A program made the translations under genes and the position numbers. The notes below the pieces were generated by a model, which saw nothing but the letters and a program-made list of their open reading frames with translations, was not told the origin of the DNA and searched no databases. From Planktothrix agardhii NIES-204 (GTDB lineage Bacteria > Cyanobacteriota > Cyanobacteriia > Cyanobacteriales > Microcoleaceae): a stretch of DNA of 64,000 nucleotides. Shown here in pieces: positions 7,290-13,445 of this stretch. Position 1 is the stretch's first letter. Each line of letters starts with the position of its first letter. Where the stretch lies: positions 4,017,001-4,081,000 of the forward strand of contig AP017991.1 in NCBI GenBank assembly GCA_003609755.1, in the 5' to 3' direction.

Positions 7290-7938
7290 TTAACTTGGAT
7301 TTATTATCGCCAAGAGGTCAGGGACGGGAAAGGGTTCTTGTTCAAGAGGAACAAACTGATTTTGTTTAACATCATACGCTAAAATTCGTCCCGTTTCAAT
7401 TTCATAAACCCAAGCATGAAGGTGGAGTTTTCCAGCGTGTAACCTAGACCTAACAACTGGATAGGTTTCTAGGTTGGCAATTTGATTTAAAACATTAGTT
7501 TGGGTGGCAATACTTAACAATTCTTCTCCCGAATATTCTGAATAATTCTCTCCAATGATCCGACGAATTGATTCTCCATAAACTTTTAACCAATCATAGA
7601 CTAATGGCATTTGATCATACAAATTTTGGAGTTGAAGCAATCCTTTAATACTACCACACAGGGAATGTCCACAGATGATAATTTCTTTCGACTTTTTTGA
7701 GTAAAGGTGTGATGAACTCAACCAGGACATCAAGTTGTTTTTCATTGATACAAACGGTCATGATATAGCTGCTCGTAAAATTGCAGTCTAAATCAGAACA
7801 GTAAATACCCCGATCCCCTTTACCAGAGGTATCTTTAATCACGGTATATCCAAAGACTTTGACCTGATCTAAAATATCCAGGGCATCCTGAACATGAAAT
7901 GTATCAATGATGATTTCTACTTTTCTGATATCTTGCAT
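7290..7938 (-). pseudogene. PII-like gene fused out of frame to a headless beta-carbonic anhydrase
   Basis: Two overlapping minus-strand frames. The 5' frame (7938-7651, ATG at 7938) encodes a PII-like protein similar to SbtB/carboxysome-type PII: VEIIIDTFHVQDALDIL, then the T-loop-like GYTVIKDTSGKGDRG, ending near ITPLLKK. The final strand is missing. The 3' frame (to 7290) encodes the second half of a beta-carbonic anhydrase: KEIIICGHSLCGSIKGLLQL (zinc ligands His and Cys), MPLVYDWLK, LETYPVVRSRLHAGKLHLHA and WVYEIETG. The N-terminal half with the CxDSR zinc/active-site motif is absent. The frames meet around 7690-7712. This looks like a deletion that removed the end of one gene and the start of the next, so neither product should be a working enzyme or sensor. 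Confidence 0.75.
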
Positions 7939-8110
7939 ACTAAATTAACAATTCTAGTAGTGAATCCAAGTCCTAGGGGAATTATTAAGATTTTTTACAA
8001 TTGACAATGATCGTCACCTTTACTTATTTAATGATTAGGTGTTGTCAACAGTTAAACATCCAGACTCATTGAGTTGAAAACTTTCCTCAATCTAAGGAGC
8101 ATCCAGTTTT

Positions 8111-8452
8111 ATGACAAGCAGCGCAACAGCATCACTGCTGTATTTTAACGGTACAGACGATAAGATTGATGTTGGCTACAACAATGAATTAAATCCCCAA
8201 ACTTTTACAATTGAAGCTTGGGCATATTCCCGCACCTCAAATACAGGAATTGAACGCTCTGTATTAACTTCCCGTCCCGATAGTTATCGGTGGGGGTATA
8301 TGTTTTATCAATCTTGCTATCAAGATAATTGGGAATTATGGCTGTTACCTCCAAATGGTGATTATCAAAAAATTCGCGGGCCAAAAGTTCAAGCCAATGT
8401 CTGGACTCATTTAGCCGCCACTTATGACCCAGGGCTGTGGGTTTATTATTAG
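8111..8452 (+). pseudogene. Truncated LamG/concanavalin-like domain protein
   Basis: The 113-codon frame starts at an ATG 7 nt after AGGAGC. It shows the beginning of a LamG-like jelly-roll domain: ASLLYFNGTDDKIDVGYNNE, LNPQTFTIEAWAYSR, SVLTSRPDSYRWGYMFYQ and NVWTHLAATYD. In intact domains TYD is followed by more strands; here it is cut by PGLWVYY and a stop, exactly where the next frame (polyprenyl synthetase) begins. The N-terminus lacks an obvious signal peptide. The frame overlaps the next one by 16 bp. I read it as the 5' remnant of a larger gene cut by a deletion. Confidence 0.65.
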
Positions 8453-9156
8453 AAAATCTATCTTTCTTGGGAGTGACAAAAACCCTAAATATTCTCCATG
8501 AAATTGAAGTTATGGCACAACAATCCGTTGAAGGACAGGCAATGGAATTAGATTGGGTAGCCGATAATGCCGCCTATTTAACGGATCAAGATTATTTTAC
8601 CATGTGCGTTAAAAAAACCTGTTGGTATTCGTTCATGACCCCTTGTCGAATTGGGTTGATTATTGGAAATCCTAATGCTAACGCTAGTGAATTAATCAAA
8701 CCTTTAGCCGAGTTAACTCGATTTGGAATGCTACTAGGAATTGCCTTTCAAATTCAAGATGATCTCTTAAATCTAGTGGGAGAAATCGAAACCTATGGCA
8801 AAGAAATTGGAGGAGATATTTATGAGGGAAAACGCACGGTAATGTTAAATCATGTTATTACCCATAGCAAACCCCAAGAAGCAGAAAAAATTCTCAATAT
8901 TTTAGCAATTGATAGAGAAAAGAAAACTCCCGATCAAATTGAGTTTATTTTGCAATTGATGCGAAATTATGGCAGTATAGAACATGGTTGGGATTTAGCT
9001 CGTTCCTATGCGAATCAATCCGCAGAACTGTTCGAATCTCTGGATTTCCTTCAAGCTGAAACTCCCGTCCATCCAGAGGAAAAATTAATTTCAGAATATC
9101 ATGATCGACGATTCTTAGAAGAATTGATAAATTATGTAATTTATCGCAATTTATAA
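8437..9156 (+). pseudogene. Polyprenyl synthetase, C-terminal part (first DDxxD missing)
   Basis: The frame opens at a GTG that is probably not an original start. It shows the second half of an isoprenyl diphosphate synthase: EVMAQQSVEGQAMELDW, KKTCWYSFMTPCRIGLIIG, GIAFQIQDDLLNLVGE (second aspartate-rich motif) and GGDIYEGKRTVMLNHV. The first aspartate-rich motif and roughly the first 100 residues of a normal synthase are absent, and the frame begins at the LamG break. Intact relatives condense IPP with allylic diphosphates; this copy should be inactive unless complemented. It is followed after 22 bp by the repeat-protein gene, suggesting a former operon. Confidence 0.75.
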
Positions 9157-9178
9157 TCAATAAAAATAGGATAAAATC

Positions 9179-10750
9179 ATGAATTTAGAATTAAAACAAA
9201 CTGACAATTTCCCGATATTAATTCAGGGTAAACTCGGATTAAATGTGATCCTGAATTTATCCTGTTGTAATCATCAGTCGGAAACCTTACTCATTCGTCC
9301 GATTTTAGAAGATGGGTTCACCGATCAACAACAGGTCGTATCTTGTCATTATCAAGTTAATCCAGCCTATCTTTATTTATTATCAGGAAAAACGGCAAAT
9401 CTGACTTTAACCTTCCAAATTCCCGAAACTATTCCTGATCATCCGGTGAAAATCGGGTTAAGATTTCCAGGGATAGAAGCAGAAGCGATTCCCATTCTCA
9501 TCACTCCTGTATCTCCTCAACCTGATTCTGAAACGAACTCAATTCAGATTTATCTTCAAGTCACCTTTCCTTTTTCTAACCAGAATATTCAATCCCCAAC
9601 TCATTTTTCTAGTCAAAAAACAGGCGCAATTTGGGGATTAATTTCAGGGTTAAACGATTTAGATACAATTCCCTCTCGTTGGTTTATTGCTGAAATTATT
9701 ACGCTTTTAGCGATAATTGGAAATGATTATTCTCAGACTAAATTTGGAAATAAAATACTTCATAAACTTAAAAAAACAGATTTTTTCAAAGTAGGTATAA
9801 AGGCATTTAATTCAGCTAATATTTCTCACTGGCTGATCACAAGTTTATCTACGATTCAAACTTATTTAGGTAAAAAATTAGGATTAGAAGTTTGGGAACA
9901 GTGGTTATATAGTTTGGAAAAAACTGATTTAGAAACGGAAAAAAAATCAGAAACTATTTTAATTTCTCCCCTGATATCTTCTGATGGGGTTTCTCAACAG
10001 AATATCCCAACAGAAGACTGGTTTTGTTATATTATTTTGGGTTTAAAACAGATTTCTCCCACTTTTTCTAATCAATTAGAAACTCTAATTTTTCCAGCTT
10101 CAGCACAGCTTAACAATTCTTCTTTTGGGTCGAGGTTATTCAAGTTTATTCCCCCTAAAACTAACCCAGAAAACCAAGCTATTACCCTCGAAAAAATTAT
10201 CATTTTAACCACAGGAATATCTAATTTTGATACCTTACCTGCTCGCTGGTTTATTGTAGAAGTGCTTTTGATTTTAGCCGATCATGGAAATCAGTATTCA
10301 ACCCAAAAACAGGGGATAGAATTATGTTCTAAACTACAACGGACTCGATTTTTTAAAAATGGGGTTATTGCTTTAGCTTCCGCACAATTTCCCCGGTGGT
10401 TAATTGTCAGCCATCAAGCAGCATCAGCCTTTCATACCGATACAGGAGAAAGCTTAGAAACCCAAGGATTACTCTATTTTTGGGAAAAATGGTTATGGAG
10501 TTTAAATTCTCAGCCCTTGCCAAATATTTTAAATTATCATACCCTAACGGAAAACCTAATTCAAAAAAATGGGATGAATGCTGAAAAATGGTTCGTTGAT
10601 ATTATTTTAGGACTGACTTTAATTTCGCCTAGAATAGCAGCATTTGTCCATTCCATGGCCGAGACAGCACCAGCAATTTCCCTCGAATCCGCAAGTGTTA
10701 AAACTCCATTAGAAAATATTCTCAATTCTAATCTATCTTTACAACGATGA
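9179..10750 (+). CDS. Unrecognised protein with two internal repeats (523 aa)
   Basis: I cannot name this family. Residues 1-130 look like a beta-sandwich (VNPAYLYLLSGKTANLTLTF, IPDHPVKIGLRFPG). Then come two homologous, largely helical units of about 145 residues. Unit 1 (about 152-296) has LDTIPSRWFIAEIITLLAII, KLKKTDFFKVGIKAF, SHWLITS, WEQWLYSLE and TEDWFCYIILGLKQISP. Unit 2 (about 342-484) has FDTLPARWFIVEVLLILAD, KLQRTRFFKNGVIAL, PRWLIVS, WEKWLWSLN and AEKWFVDIILGLTLISP. There is no signal peptide. The stop overlaps the next start (ATGA at 10747-10750), indicating translational coupling with the CrtC-like gene; the prenyl synthetase remnant is 22 bp upstream. A role next to isoprenoid chemistry is inferred from context only. 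Confidence 0.75.
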   Translation: MNLELKQTDNFPILIQGKLGLNVILNLSCCNHQSETLLIRPILEDGFTDQQQVVSCHYQVNPAYLYLLSGKTANLTLTFQIPETIPDHPVKIGLRFPGIEAEAIPILITPVSPQPDSETNSIQIYLQVTFPFSNQNIQSPTHFSSQKTGAIWGLISGLNDLDTIPSRWFIAEIITLLAIIGNDYSQTKFGNKILHKLKKTDFFKVGIKAFNSANISHWLITSLSTIQTYLGKKLGLEVWEQWLYSLEKTDLETEKKSETILISPLISSDGVSQQNIPTEDWFCYIILGLKQISPTFSNQLETLIFPASAQLNNSSFGSRLFKFIPPKTNPENQAITLEKIIILTTGISNFDTLPARWFIVEVLLILADHGNQYSTQKQGIELCSKLQRTRFFKNGVIALASAQFPRWLIVSHQAASAFHTDTGESLETQGLLYFWEKWLWSLNSQPLPNILNYHTLTENLIQKNGMNAEKWFVDIILGLTLISPRIAAFVHSMAETAPAISLESASVKTPLENILNSNLSLQR

Positions 10751-11814
10751 CTTTAGATCTTTCACTGATTAACCAGATTGAATCTTTACGGATTCCTTTA
10801 GATGATCCTGAATCTCCTTTAGATTGGAAAGATTGGTATCATTATATTCTGATTCATCCTAAAACCGGGATGCGAATTTTAGTGAATATTACTCTCATGG
10901 GTAGACCCCAACGGGGAGAAATTCAAGTCAGTTTGATTATTAATAGTCCCAATTATTTATTACCCCTATCCCTACAAACACCGGATTTAATTGCGACCTT
11001 TGCTGCGGCTGTTTCTATTCCTTGGAAATCTAATCAGGTCTGTTCTCAACCCTTAGAAATTCAAGTCAAAGGGGTACATTTACAAATTAATGGTGAACAA
11101 TCTAAAATCCGAGTTTTTGACGAGCCATCGCAACTTTCTATTGATTTTAAAACTCAAGCCAAGGCTACTCCTTTATTAGTTACAGAAGATGCTCAATTTG
11201 GCAGTGGTTTTATCGGCTGGGGATTAATTCCTGGGTTAGAAGTTGTAGGAGAATTAGACGTTGGTGAAACCAAATTTAACTTAAATTCCGATTGGTTTTG
11301 TTATCACGATCGCAATTTTGGCCGATTCCGATGGGGAGAGGATATTGGTTGGGAATGGTTTGTGATTTTTGCTCAAACTGAAACTAAAATTCCCCTCACC
11401 CTAATCTTAGACTGGAGAACCAATAAAACCCATAGTCAAGGCGGTTTACCTTATATTTTTATCTATCAAAATCATCAGTTAAGGAAAATCTTTTTAGGGG
11501 AAACCTTACGCCTTAATTGGAATTGGTCTACAGTTTCCTATCAACCCTTACGTTTACCCGGAATCATGGCTTCTTTATTTAGCGATCGCTCCCTAAAAAT
11601 GCCCCAAAGCTTGCAAATTGAAGCCCAAGATGAACAGGATCATTTGTTGTTAAATCTCAACTTTGATGCTACCCTAGAACTGATTGTCCCCGATAATCAA
11701 TCCCGTCAATATACTTTTATTGAAGAACTCTCTGGAACTGTTGAAATGCACCTAAACCTTAACGAAACCCAATTAACAGCCGAAGGATTTGTTTATGCAG
11801 AATATGTGCAGTAA
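10747..11814 (+). CDS. CrtC-like (hydroxyneurosporene synthase/lipocalin-like) family protein
   Basis: The 355-aa, beta-rich protein carries the motif YHDRNFGRFRWGEDIGWEW at residues 186-204. It resembles the YHDHNWG motif of the CrtC/AttH lipocalin-like superfamily, in which CrtC adds water across the terminal double bond of acyclic carotenoids. Other matching pieces are FGSGFIGWGLIPGLE before the motif and VIFAQTETKIPLTLILDWRT after it. No signal peptide or membrane helix is seen. The start overlaps the previous stop (ATGA), so it is co-translated with the repeat protein. With a polyprenyl synthetase remnant upstream, hydration or cyclisation of a terpenoid is a plausible but unproven role. 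Confidence 0.65.
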   Translation: MTLDLSLINQIESLRIPLDDPESPLDWKDWYHYILIHPKTGMRILVNITLMGRPQRGEIQVSLIINSPNYLLPLSLQTPDLIATFAAAVSIPWKSNQVCSQPLEIQVKGVHLQINGEQSKIRVFDEPSQLSIDFKTQAKATPLLVTEDAQFGSGFIGWGLIPGLEVVGELDVGETKFNLNSDWFCYHDRNFGRFRWGEDIGWEWFVIFAQTETKIPLTLILDWRTNKTHSQGGLPYIFIYQNHQLRKIFLGETLRLNWNWSTVSYQPLRLPGIMASLFSDRSLKMPQSLQIEAQDEQDHLLLNLNFDATLELIVPDNQSRQYTFIEELSGTVEMHLNLNETQLTAEGFVYAEYVQ

Positions 11815-11826
11815 ACAGGTTTCAGG

Positions 11827-11868
11827 TTTCGGCTTTCGGCTTTCGGCTTTCGGCTTTCGGCTTTCGGG
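11827..11868. repeat. Heptanucleotide tandem array (TTCGGCT)n
   Basis: About six tandem copies of the 7-bp unit TTCGGCT directly after the CrtC-like gene. It belongs with the other 7-bp arrays here (GGGTAAT, CAGTAAT, CAGTTAT, AACTGAT). Such short tandemly repeated repetitive sequences are known from filamentous cyanobacteria. Confidence 0.9.
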
Positions 11869-11935
11869 TTCTAGCTAATATTCCATCCTTTAATATTTGC
11901 TACAAATACTTGATCGGGTGGGTAATAACTTTTTT

Positions 11936-12057: not shown

Positions 12058-13365
12058 TTAACGGGAATTCAAATAGGTTTCTAGGACATCAATGGCTTTG
12101 CAGTTTCCCTGTTCAGCTTGAATATAATTGCTGACTTCAGCAACACGGGTAGCATAATTTGGATCACCTAATAACACTTTAAGTTCTGCTAAAACCCTAG
12201 ACGCTTGATAAAGATTGCGGTCTAATATTCGTCCAACTCCCATTTTTACCACTCGCGCCGCATTCTCCGGTTGATCATAATTAAAAGGAACAATCAACAT
12301 CGGATGCCCTGCGCGTAAGGCTTCTGCCGTTGTTCCCATCCCCCCATGATGGACAATTGCGGCCGCATGGGGAAAAATAGCAGCATGGGGCGCGTAGTCA
12401 ACAGCAATGATTCCTTCGGGTAAACCCAAAGCGTTCAATTGGTGTGCCGCCTTTCCCATCATCAAAATTGCCCGATATCCTAACTCTTGGGCGGCTATCA
12501 TCCCCTCCTGATAAAAGTTGCCAGGAGCTAAAACAGCCGTTGACCCCAAGGTAAATACAATCGCAGGTGGCCCATCATCCAAAAAGGCCTGAAGTTCTGG
12601 GGATAACCCCGGCCCAGAATTGGGACGGTAAAAGGGAAAACCCGTAATCTGGGTTTGTGGGGGCCAATCTGGTTGGGCCGTGGCGAAGGTTGGGGAAAAT
12701 AAACCTAATACCAGCGGCGCAAATTGTCCTTCAAACAAAGGATCAAGCCCGCCTTCTAACCCTAATTCTGCCTGTAATTGTTCCAAAGGAGCACTCCTAA
12801 GTCGAGCATTCGAGCGCAATAGACGCATGAGTGAATCTCTAGCCACCACAGCCATTGCCTGTTGATGGCGAGATTGAGTGCTTTTTTCCTGGGCGGTATC
12901 ATAGACTGAGATCAAAGCACTGGGAGATAAAATCGTAGAAACCCAGGGAATTGCTATTTTTTCAGCGACTAAAGATGCCACTAAAATTAAAGGATGGGTT
13001 AAGAGTAAATCTGCTCCTTGGCAGGCCTTAATTAAGTCACAATAACTGGTGCGTAAATAGGGCATTAATAAATAATTGATAATGTATTCTACGCCCCTTT
13101 GGGAGTCCATCATCATTGAAATAAATTCTGCCTCATTGGGATCTTGGGGTAAACCATTGGGTCTGAGGGGATGAAATTCTATTCCTGCTGTTTCTAGGGT
13201 TTGTTGATATTGTTCACAGCTGGCAATACTGGGAGAATATCCTCGACTTTGCAATTCCTGAGCCAACGCCATATAGGGATATAAATCCCCTAAAGATCCA
13301 AAGGTTGCTAAAACAATTCTCTTTCCAGAGCCGTTTGAAGTTTGATCTTTTAATCTACTGTCCAT
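12058..13365 (-). CDS. GT1-family (UDP-glycosyltransferase/MGT-like) glycosyltransferase
   Basis: ATG at 13365 chosen over a GTG at 13395. The roughly 434-aa GT-B protein has the N-terminal acceptor-side start RIVLATFGSLGDLYPYMALA and, in the C-terminal donor domain, FTLGSTAVLAPGNFY, AAIVHHGGMGTTAEALRAG and PMLIVPFNYDQPENAARV. The HHGGMGTT segment is the nucleotide-sugar binding signature shared with macrolide, sterol and MurG-like glycosyltransferases. Family members glycosylate lipids, sterols or natural products; the acceptor is not deducible. It is followed on the same strand by nothing close, and lies 3' of the polysaccharide deacetylase. Confidence 0.88.
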   Translation of the reverse strand: MDSRLKDQTSNGSGKRIVLATFGSLGDLYPYMALAQELQSRGYSPSIASCEQYQQTLETAGIEFHPLRPNGLPQDPNEAEFISMMMDSQRGVEYIINYLLMPYLRTSYCDLIKACQGADLLLTHPLILVASLVAEKIAIPWVSTILSPSALISVYDTAQEKSTQSRHQQAMAVVARDSLMRLLRSNARLRSAPLEQLQAELGLEGGLDPLFEGQFAPLVLGLFSPTFATAQPDWPPQTQITGFPFYRPNSGPGLSPELQAFLDDGPPAIVFTLGSTAVLAPGNFYQEGMIAAQELGYRAILMMGKAAHQLNALGLPEGIIAVDYAPHAAIFPHAAAIVHHGGMGTTAEALRAGHPMLIVPFNYDQPENAARVVKMGVGRILDRNLYQASRVLAELKVLLGDPNYATRVAEVSNYIQAEQGNCKAIDVLETYLNSR

Positions 13366-13445
13366 GGGATTGAATTTACAAATACCTGATTCCACATTAT
13401 TAAATGTATCATGAGCTAATAAAATATTTTGCCTTGAATTAAGTT

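Follow-up and report, generated by a model that had tools for sequence, protein, structure and literature searches.

What does a run of three genes in the cyanobacterium Planktothrix agardhii NIES-204 represent, when the first of them appears to lack its head? The run lies in a 64,000-nucleotide stretch of DNA (GenBank contig AP017991.1, positions 4,017,001 to 4,081,000), which is called the window here and provides the numbering used below. An earlier note, made from the letters alone, had read the three frames as the relic of an operon for a hydrated or cyclised terpenoid, consisting of a polyprenyl synthetase remnant, a 523-residue protein with two repeats (P523) and a hydratase resembling CrtC. 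Comparison with related genomes gives good support to the view that an isoprenoid cassette conserved among cyanobacteria has decayed in the window. The intact cassette probably makes an undescribed sugar-decorated isoprenoid, since the synthase, P523 and the CrtC-like enzyme are found alongside a sugar transferase and proteins that bind sugars.

Compared loci are designated by L and genomes by G; L019 is the locus of Planktothrix rubescens PCC7821 (G045, LR882958.1). The features of the window are the following:

8111 to 8452, plus strand: remnant of a LamG (concanavalin-like) lectin-type gene (Laminin_G_3, E 1.1e-10)
8433 to 8434, no strand: deletion junction, with L019 position 2899 joined to 7775
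8437 to 9156, plus strand: C-terminal remnant (residues 127-365) of a trans-isoprenyl diphosphate synthase, 239 amino acids (polyprenyl_synt, E 3e-29)
9179 to 10750, plus strand: P523, a protein without a recognised family, 523 amino acids, with an N-terminal part and two homologous halves
10747 to 11814, plus strand: CrtC-like protein, 355 amino acids, with Y186, the putative proton donor D188, W202 and W204
12058 to 13395, minus strand: GT1-type glycosyltransferase (EryCIII/UDPGT-like), recognised via its L019 homologue at 95 % identity

The arrangement described previously was found again on the plus strand, with a 22-bp gap between the synthase remnant and P523 (9157-9178) and an ATGA overlap between P523 and the CrtC-like gene (10747-10750). 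The PCC7821 copies of the trio show 99 % identity to those of the window. Relatives show 31-92 % identity for P523 and 52-87 % for the CrtC-like protein (20 other sequences compared with the window's), while the synthase relatives are 73-99 % identical to the L019 synthase. The synonymous and non-synonymous differences between the window and L019 (6/3 in the synthase remnant, 3/5 in P523, 6/3 in the CrtC-like gene) are too few for an interpretation of selection.

How did the synthase lose its head? The alignment of the window with L019 breaks off after window position 8433 and resumes at 8434, with 4,875 bp gone and no microhomology visible at the junction. The LamG remnant shows 99 % identity to the first 108 residues of a 380-residue L019 protein; the match ends at 8433, and foreign residues follow until the stop codon. 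The deletion thus fused a lectin-type gene to the synthase just ahead of residue 127, and position 8437, where the earlier note had the synthase begin, is not a real start; the LamG remnant upstream belongs to the locus. In L019 the order is a LamG gene, two lectin- or pentapeptide-type open reading frames, a second LamG gene, an SCP2-like gene (opposite strand), the 365-residue synthase, P523, the CrtC-like gene and the glycosyltransferase (opposite strand). This layout is probably the older one because two further Planktothrix loci, L021 and L022, share the same core and have similar lectin-type genes upstream. Relative to the layout of these three loci, the deletion took lectin-type genes, the SCP2-like gene and the synthase head.

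What remains of the synthase matches positions 102-250 of the 251 in the polyprenyl_synt profile of Pfam, which identifies it as the C-terminal part only, and is 99.6 % identical to residues 127-365 of the L019 synthase. As had been noticed from the letters, the frame is headless and keeps the second aspartate-rich motif (DDLLN), while the first (DDxxD, which is DDIED in relatives) is absent. Both DDIED and DDLLN occur in all 27 synthase sequences of relatives (that of L020 being a partial sequence cut by a contig end). Judged from its family, the window copy should be inactive as a synthase because residues 1-126, including DDIED, are deleted. The search of the window's genome gave no second synthase of the cassette type; its remaining matches, at E 2.9e-16 or weaker, fall within open frames 318 and 324 residues long. 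The best two relatives of the intact synthase in the PDB are the geranylgeranyl diphosphate (GGPP) synthases 1wmw (1.3e-50) and 1wy0 (1.6e-34), which presumably come from Thermus and Pyrococcus, respectively. In 17 of 25 synthases the first 80 residues contain a strongly hydrophobic stretch (Kyte-Doolittle mean above 1.6 over 19 residues), and the linkers reach lengths of several hundred residues; such an N-terminal stretch is missing from the full-length synthases of Planktothrix.

Does the trio form a unit elsewhere? Among 388 genomes sampled from the window's order, and most densely from its own family, the P523 profile matched 30 and the CrtC-like profile 30, with 29 shared, while simple multiplication predicts about 2.3 (both searches used the same settings). 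The P523 genomes represent seven families: 13 genomes belong to the window's family and 17 to six others. Chance open reading frames are ruled out, since relatives exist in 29 other genomes of this sample. The neighbourhood search proposed earlier is borne out to the extent that a CrtC-like gene, whole or as a remnant, persists in 29 of the 30 P523 genomes, although in G673 this is a 67-position fragment with a stop codon. The profiles (A1, A2, A3 and A5) were made from loci found via P523, so solitary relatives of the CrtC-like protein or of the synthase may be under-detected. Among 61 genomes of the family, P523 and the CrtC-like protein were each found in 12, and the cassette-type synthase (E up to 1e-40) in 13, namely the 12 with the CrtC-like protein and G001, which is 55 % complete and where the match is at a contig end.

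A core gene above the score limit was present in 28 of the 29 loci fetched, the decayed L086 being dropped. All three genes are held by 24 of the 28, and in 23 of these 24 the synthase, P523 and CrtC-like genes lie on one strand in the same order; in L085 the CrtC-like gene is inverted. Lectin-type genes intervene between the synthase and P523 in L072, L076 and L085. The four loci without the full trio are L020, L024 and L069, which are cut by contig ends (the genomes of the latter two have the synthase on another contig), and L027, where P523 is alone. Some loci are near-duplicates (e.g., L079 and L080), so that the locus counts are not all independent. Distance matrices over 18 loci correlate at 0.95 between P523 and the CrtC-like protein and at 0.55-0.57 between either and the synthase; these values come without a housekeeping control and were not counted as proof. 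Taken with the intact synthases, the conserved order upholds the earlier proposal of an operon-like unit that is complete elsewhere and decayed here. A second decayed cassette was seen in L086 (G054:C189, about 1-1400): that genome has only pieces of the synthase, P523 and CrtC-like genes, with stop codons. We found no published description of the cassette among the matches listed, by titles and abstract openings.

Other origins of the locus were also considered. No relatives were found in viral contigs and no plasmid match was obtained for the CrtC-like protein, which would have pointed to a virus or mobile element as the source; nor did PADLOC report any known defence system (0 matches among 7 proteins).

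What kind of protein is the third one? The likeness to CrtC/AttH enzymes had been suggested from the YHDRNFGRF motif, which is indeed present, and the part of this suggestion that holds is the active-site core Y-x-D...W-x-W. The Tyr, Asp and W-x-W of CrtC align with Y186, D188, W202 and W204, and these four residues do not vary in any of 21 CrtC-like proteins. According to the available text of PMC4717167, replacing H239, W241, Y266 or D268 of RgCrtC, the Rubrivivax enzyme, by alanine abolishes activity, and D268 is put forward as the proton donor; W110, W283 and W285 are likewise called critical in the available part of PMC12402844. Y266 and D268 correspond to Y186 and D188, and W283 and W285 to W202 and W204, a correspondence drawn from the motif and from alignments with CrtCs other than that of Rubrivivax. 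When proteins were ranked by hhalign against the CrtC-like profile, four PF07143 (CrtC) proteins, which are two pairs of close relatives, took places 1, 2, 3 and 5 of 292, all spanning about positions 166-219. In the reverse direction, a profile of seven plasmid-borne CrtCs (carotenoid 1,2-hydratase by annotation in five cases, hydroxyneurosporene dehydrogenase in one, without annotation in one) separated 26 CrtC-like proteins from the other 288 with an area under the curve of 0.97, the 26 not being independent of each other. The pattern Y.D.N[FW]G-(5-14)-W.W, which was composed after both families had been seen, occurs once in each of the 25 cassette loci scanned and nowhere else in 392,328 residues of open frames, 16 control stretches included; it is present in 5 of the 7 CrtC sequences, and a looser pattern in 7 of 7. 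These comparisons support the view that the third protein shares the CrtC active-site core. Directly after its stop codon, GGCTTTC-like units form a short tandem run (window 11820-11870).

P523, called a two-repeat protein in the earlier note, consists of homologous segments at residues 148-330 and 335-505 (hhalign E 5e-58), preceded by 147 residues without detectable kinship to either half. The window protein has no family match in Pfam or NCBIfam (E up to 1) or in PADLOC, and its profile matched nothing among the PDB sequences. The Pfam search with 23 members gave HTH_45 in 7 (best 0.0025) and four further single weak matches, none taken as real. Our best guess from the alignment and a low-confidence model is that P523 may combine a beta-rich head with helical repeats. 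In L027, the locus of genome G032, it stands alone as a 493-residue open frame.

The genes recurring beside the trio had no place in the earlier account: these are the SCP2-like gene (21 of 28 cassette loci), homologues of the glycosyltransferase (18 of 28) and lectins. The SCP2-like protein, absent from the window, resembles PF02036 weakly at most: with E allowed up to 10, the family is hit by 11 of 15 members, the best at 2.1e-4, and not by L019's own copy. The glycosyltransferase of L019 matches EryCIII-like_C (5.6e-19, 69 bits, cut-off 31.7) and UDPGT (1.4e-10, 41 bits, cut-off 19.5). Within the top 25 Pfam families, 140 non-core neighbour genes of 19 loci include 16 with Laminin_G_3, 9 with ricin-B, 6 with ILEI, 4 with jacalin and 3 with DUF642, against at most two members per lectin family among 140 control genes. 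The neighbour tally covers 140 of 152 genes, since 10 genes of the cassette-less L027 and two very large proteins were dropped; the control tally covers 140 of 150 genes from hand-chosen stretches of the same genomes (16 fetched), the dropped 10 including the whole last stretch. A seed search detected lectin-type genes at 21 of 25 cassette loci (none at L026, L029, L070 and L075) and at 1 of 16 controls (L101); its seeds were drawn from the cassette loci themselves, and the Pfam tallies are less biased. Among the neighbour genes a PA-IL domain exceeds its cut-off, while H-type lectin matches are sub-threshold. The lectin link is thus real as an association.

Some further genes were seen in single groups: an FkbM-type gene close to the L026 cassette, a P450-like gene (our own reading, without a family search) in one genus (L026 3577-4974, L029 3289-4686), and a patatin-like gene (Pfam) in L083 (7113-8195), with a similar-looking gene in L084. 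PCC7821 (L019 459-2120) has a second P-II-like gene and a gene for the Sbt_1 bicarbonate transporter, both missing from the window (7651-7938, 7964-8045). No Sbt_1 match over the cut-off was found in the window's genome, which leaves its P-II-like gene without its transporter. A carbonic anhydrase frame (7290-7745, minus strand) that overlaps the P-II-like gene matches only positions 53-156 of the 156 in Pro_CA and looks truncated at its N-terminus.

How might the intact cassette work? From the observed gene content, order, co-occurrence, conserved motifs and deletion, we infer a scheme for its substrate, chain length, reaction and glycosylation and for the parts of P523 and the lectins. The GGPP-type synthase, often with its hydrophobic N-terminal stretch, would make a prenyl diphosphate; the CrtC-like enzyme, with P523 as its near-constant partner, would protonate a terminal double bond through D188, and the cation would be quenched by water or by an internal double bond, giving a hydrated or cyclised isoprenoid. 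The GT1 enzyme may glycosylate this product and the SCP2-like protein may carry it. We consider it rather likely that the cassette makes such a protonated, probably glycosylated isoprenoid of C20 type and is broken in this strain.

Several observations weigh against this reading. PF07143 is matched by none of 21 CrtC-like members even at E up to 10, and the essential His239 of CrtC stands opposite Ile156, an Ile in all 21, in what is a weak alignment. For Trp241 the alignment offers a gap, with the invariant W158 (21 of 21) adjoining as a tentative counterpart. The hhalign matches to PF07143 proteins reach E values of only 0.001-0.006 (best single 0.0011) with probabilities of 6-20 %, the seven-CrtC profile gave a best single E of 0.016 and the direct profile-profile comparison 0.064. 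The AlphaFold2 models of the CrtC-like protein (from 2 sequences) and of P523 (from 3 sequences) have mean pLDDT values of 31.4 and 36.5, too low to show a fold, the two-barrel lipocalin-like one of CrtC included. Of 388 genomes sampled across the class, both profiles picked out the same two, one being the window's, which means that the P523/CrtC-like pair is not widespread. G032 has P523 with neither a CrtC-like match nor a cassette-type synthase, the single case of a kind that the earlier note had named as a refutation. The deletion itself is seen in one assembly, without reads. Besides these points, the CrtC-like window protein has no Pfam or NCBIfam match at E up to 1; three single weak Pfam matches among the 21 members led nowhere, and one PDB sequence matching the profile at E 0.3 was not taken as real.

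The replacement of His239 by Ile leaves room for a cyclase instead of a hydratase: the same proton donor would initiate class II-type cyclisation, with GGPP or a derivative of it as substrate, P523 would help and the glycosyltransferase would decorate the ring. The loss of the His while Asp, Tyr and W-x-W are kept agrees with this, and the CrtC site is likened to that of squalene-hopene cyclase in the available text of PMC4717167; lipocalin-like Diels-Alderases also suggest that such folds can serve cyclisations. However, the His239 assignment comes from the weak alignment, and we see a pure cyclase as possible, on the doubtful side. The residues invariant in the CrtC-like protein are of catalytic type, which speaks against the idea of a surface-glycan system, where the isoprenoid would be a mere membrane anchor or glycan carrier and the CrtC-like protein and P523 would serve in structure or binding rather than as enzymes. 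Such a system would accord with the lectin-type genes and glycosyltransferases counted above, the FkbM-type gene in L026 and the hydrophobic stretch on 17 of 25 synthases, but the synthase is closest to trans-type GGPP synthases and not to a cis-polyprenyl carrier synthase, and we think this explanation unlikely.

A carotenoid branch was also weighed, in which the CrtC-like enzyme would hydrate the end of an acyclic C40 carotenoid and the glycosyltransferase would complete a pigment like myxoxanthophyll or oscillaxanthin, the latter occurring in Oscillatoria rubescens. In its favour, the host cyanobacteria are pigmented and the CrtC-like gene adjoins a glycosyltransferase; against it, a prenyl synthase belongs to the cassette itself, lectins accompany the genes, Pfam gives no CrtC match, the distribution is patchy, unlike that of a core pigment, and inspection of the gene tables by eye, with no dedicated search, showed neither a phytoene synthase nor a desaturase. 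This branch seems to us quite improbable.

The isoprenoid cassette may finally be one half of an undescribed two-part system, a speculative idea with a low chance of being right as a whole. A membrane-tethered synthase, a CrtC-fold protonating enzyme and P523 would make a glycosylated isoprenoid, and fast-changing co-encoded lectins (LamG, ricin-B, jacalin, PA-IL, ILEI, DUF642 and perhaps H-type) would bind this glycolipid for strain-specific surface recognition or defence; in that case P523 would be a partner of a new kind, perhaps acting as a new cyclase or as a scaffold for prenyl chains.

The cassette would represent a terpenoid-type pathway likely to escape searches by family, P523 and the CrtC-like protein both lacking a convincing assignment in Pfam or NCBIfam. 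It couples CrtC-type chemistry with a prenyl synthase of its own, the two being fused outright in other genomes, and provides a testable link between isoprenoids and lectins, while the Planktothrix pair of one intact and one deleted strain offers a natural comparison for metabolomics.

Known systems resemble the cassette in parts. Kievitone hydratase hydrates a prenyl double bond, and its database relatives are annotated as CrtC or peptidase, according to the available part of PMC5805349; unlike the CrtC-like protein it is fungal and secreted, and the two are likened by description only. The family 2 encapsulin cargo polyprenyl transferase (NF041169) is the top NCBIfam match of the L025 synthase, which has a long N-terminal extension (E 9e-48), with 163 bits against a cut-off of 450; inspection of the gene tables by eye, with no search aimed at it, showed no encapsulin gene. 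A 747-residue fusion (L089 1384-3624, L090 352-2592) is encoded by G449 and G466, which belong to one other family; Pfam, run on the G466 copy (L089), places CrtC and Lipocalin_9 domains ahead of a polyprenyl synthetase domain, with the CrtC-type and synthase parts both significant. Neither genome is among the 30 with P523, and their inclusion in the 388-genome sample is not shown. The fusion couples CrtC-type and synthase domains as the cassette does, but within one chain and with real PF07143 and Lipocalin_9 matches, and its synthase part belongs to another subfamily (E 1.9e-10 and 2.3e-7 with the cassette-synthase profile). The GGPP synthases 1wmw and 1wy0 are of the same trans-isoprenyl diphosphate synthase kind as the cassette form with its DDIED and DDLLN, which differs in its frequent hydrophobic N-terminus and long linker, the window copy being headless. 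CrtC of purple bacteria (PF07143, carotenoid 1,2-hydratase) shares the Y-x-D...W-x-W core with the CrtC-like protein, which differs in having no Pfam match, an Ile at His239 and a tentative Trp241 counterpart (W158) one residue off, and whose gene is accompanied by its own prenyl synthase and P523.

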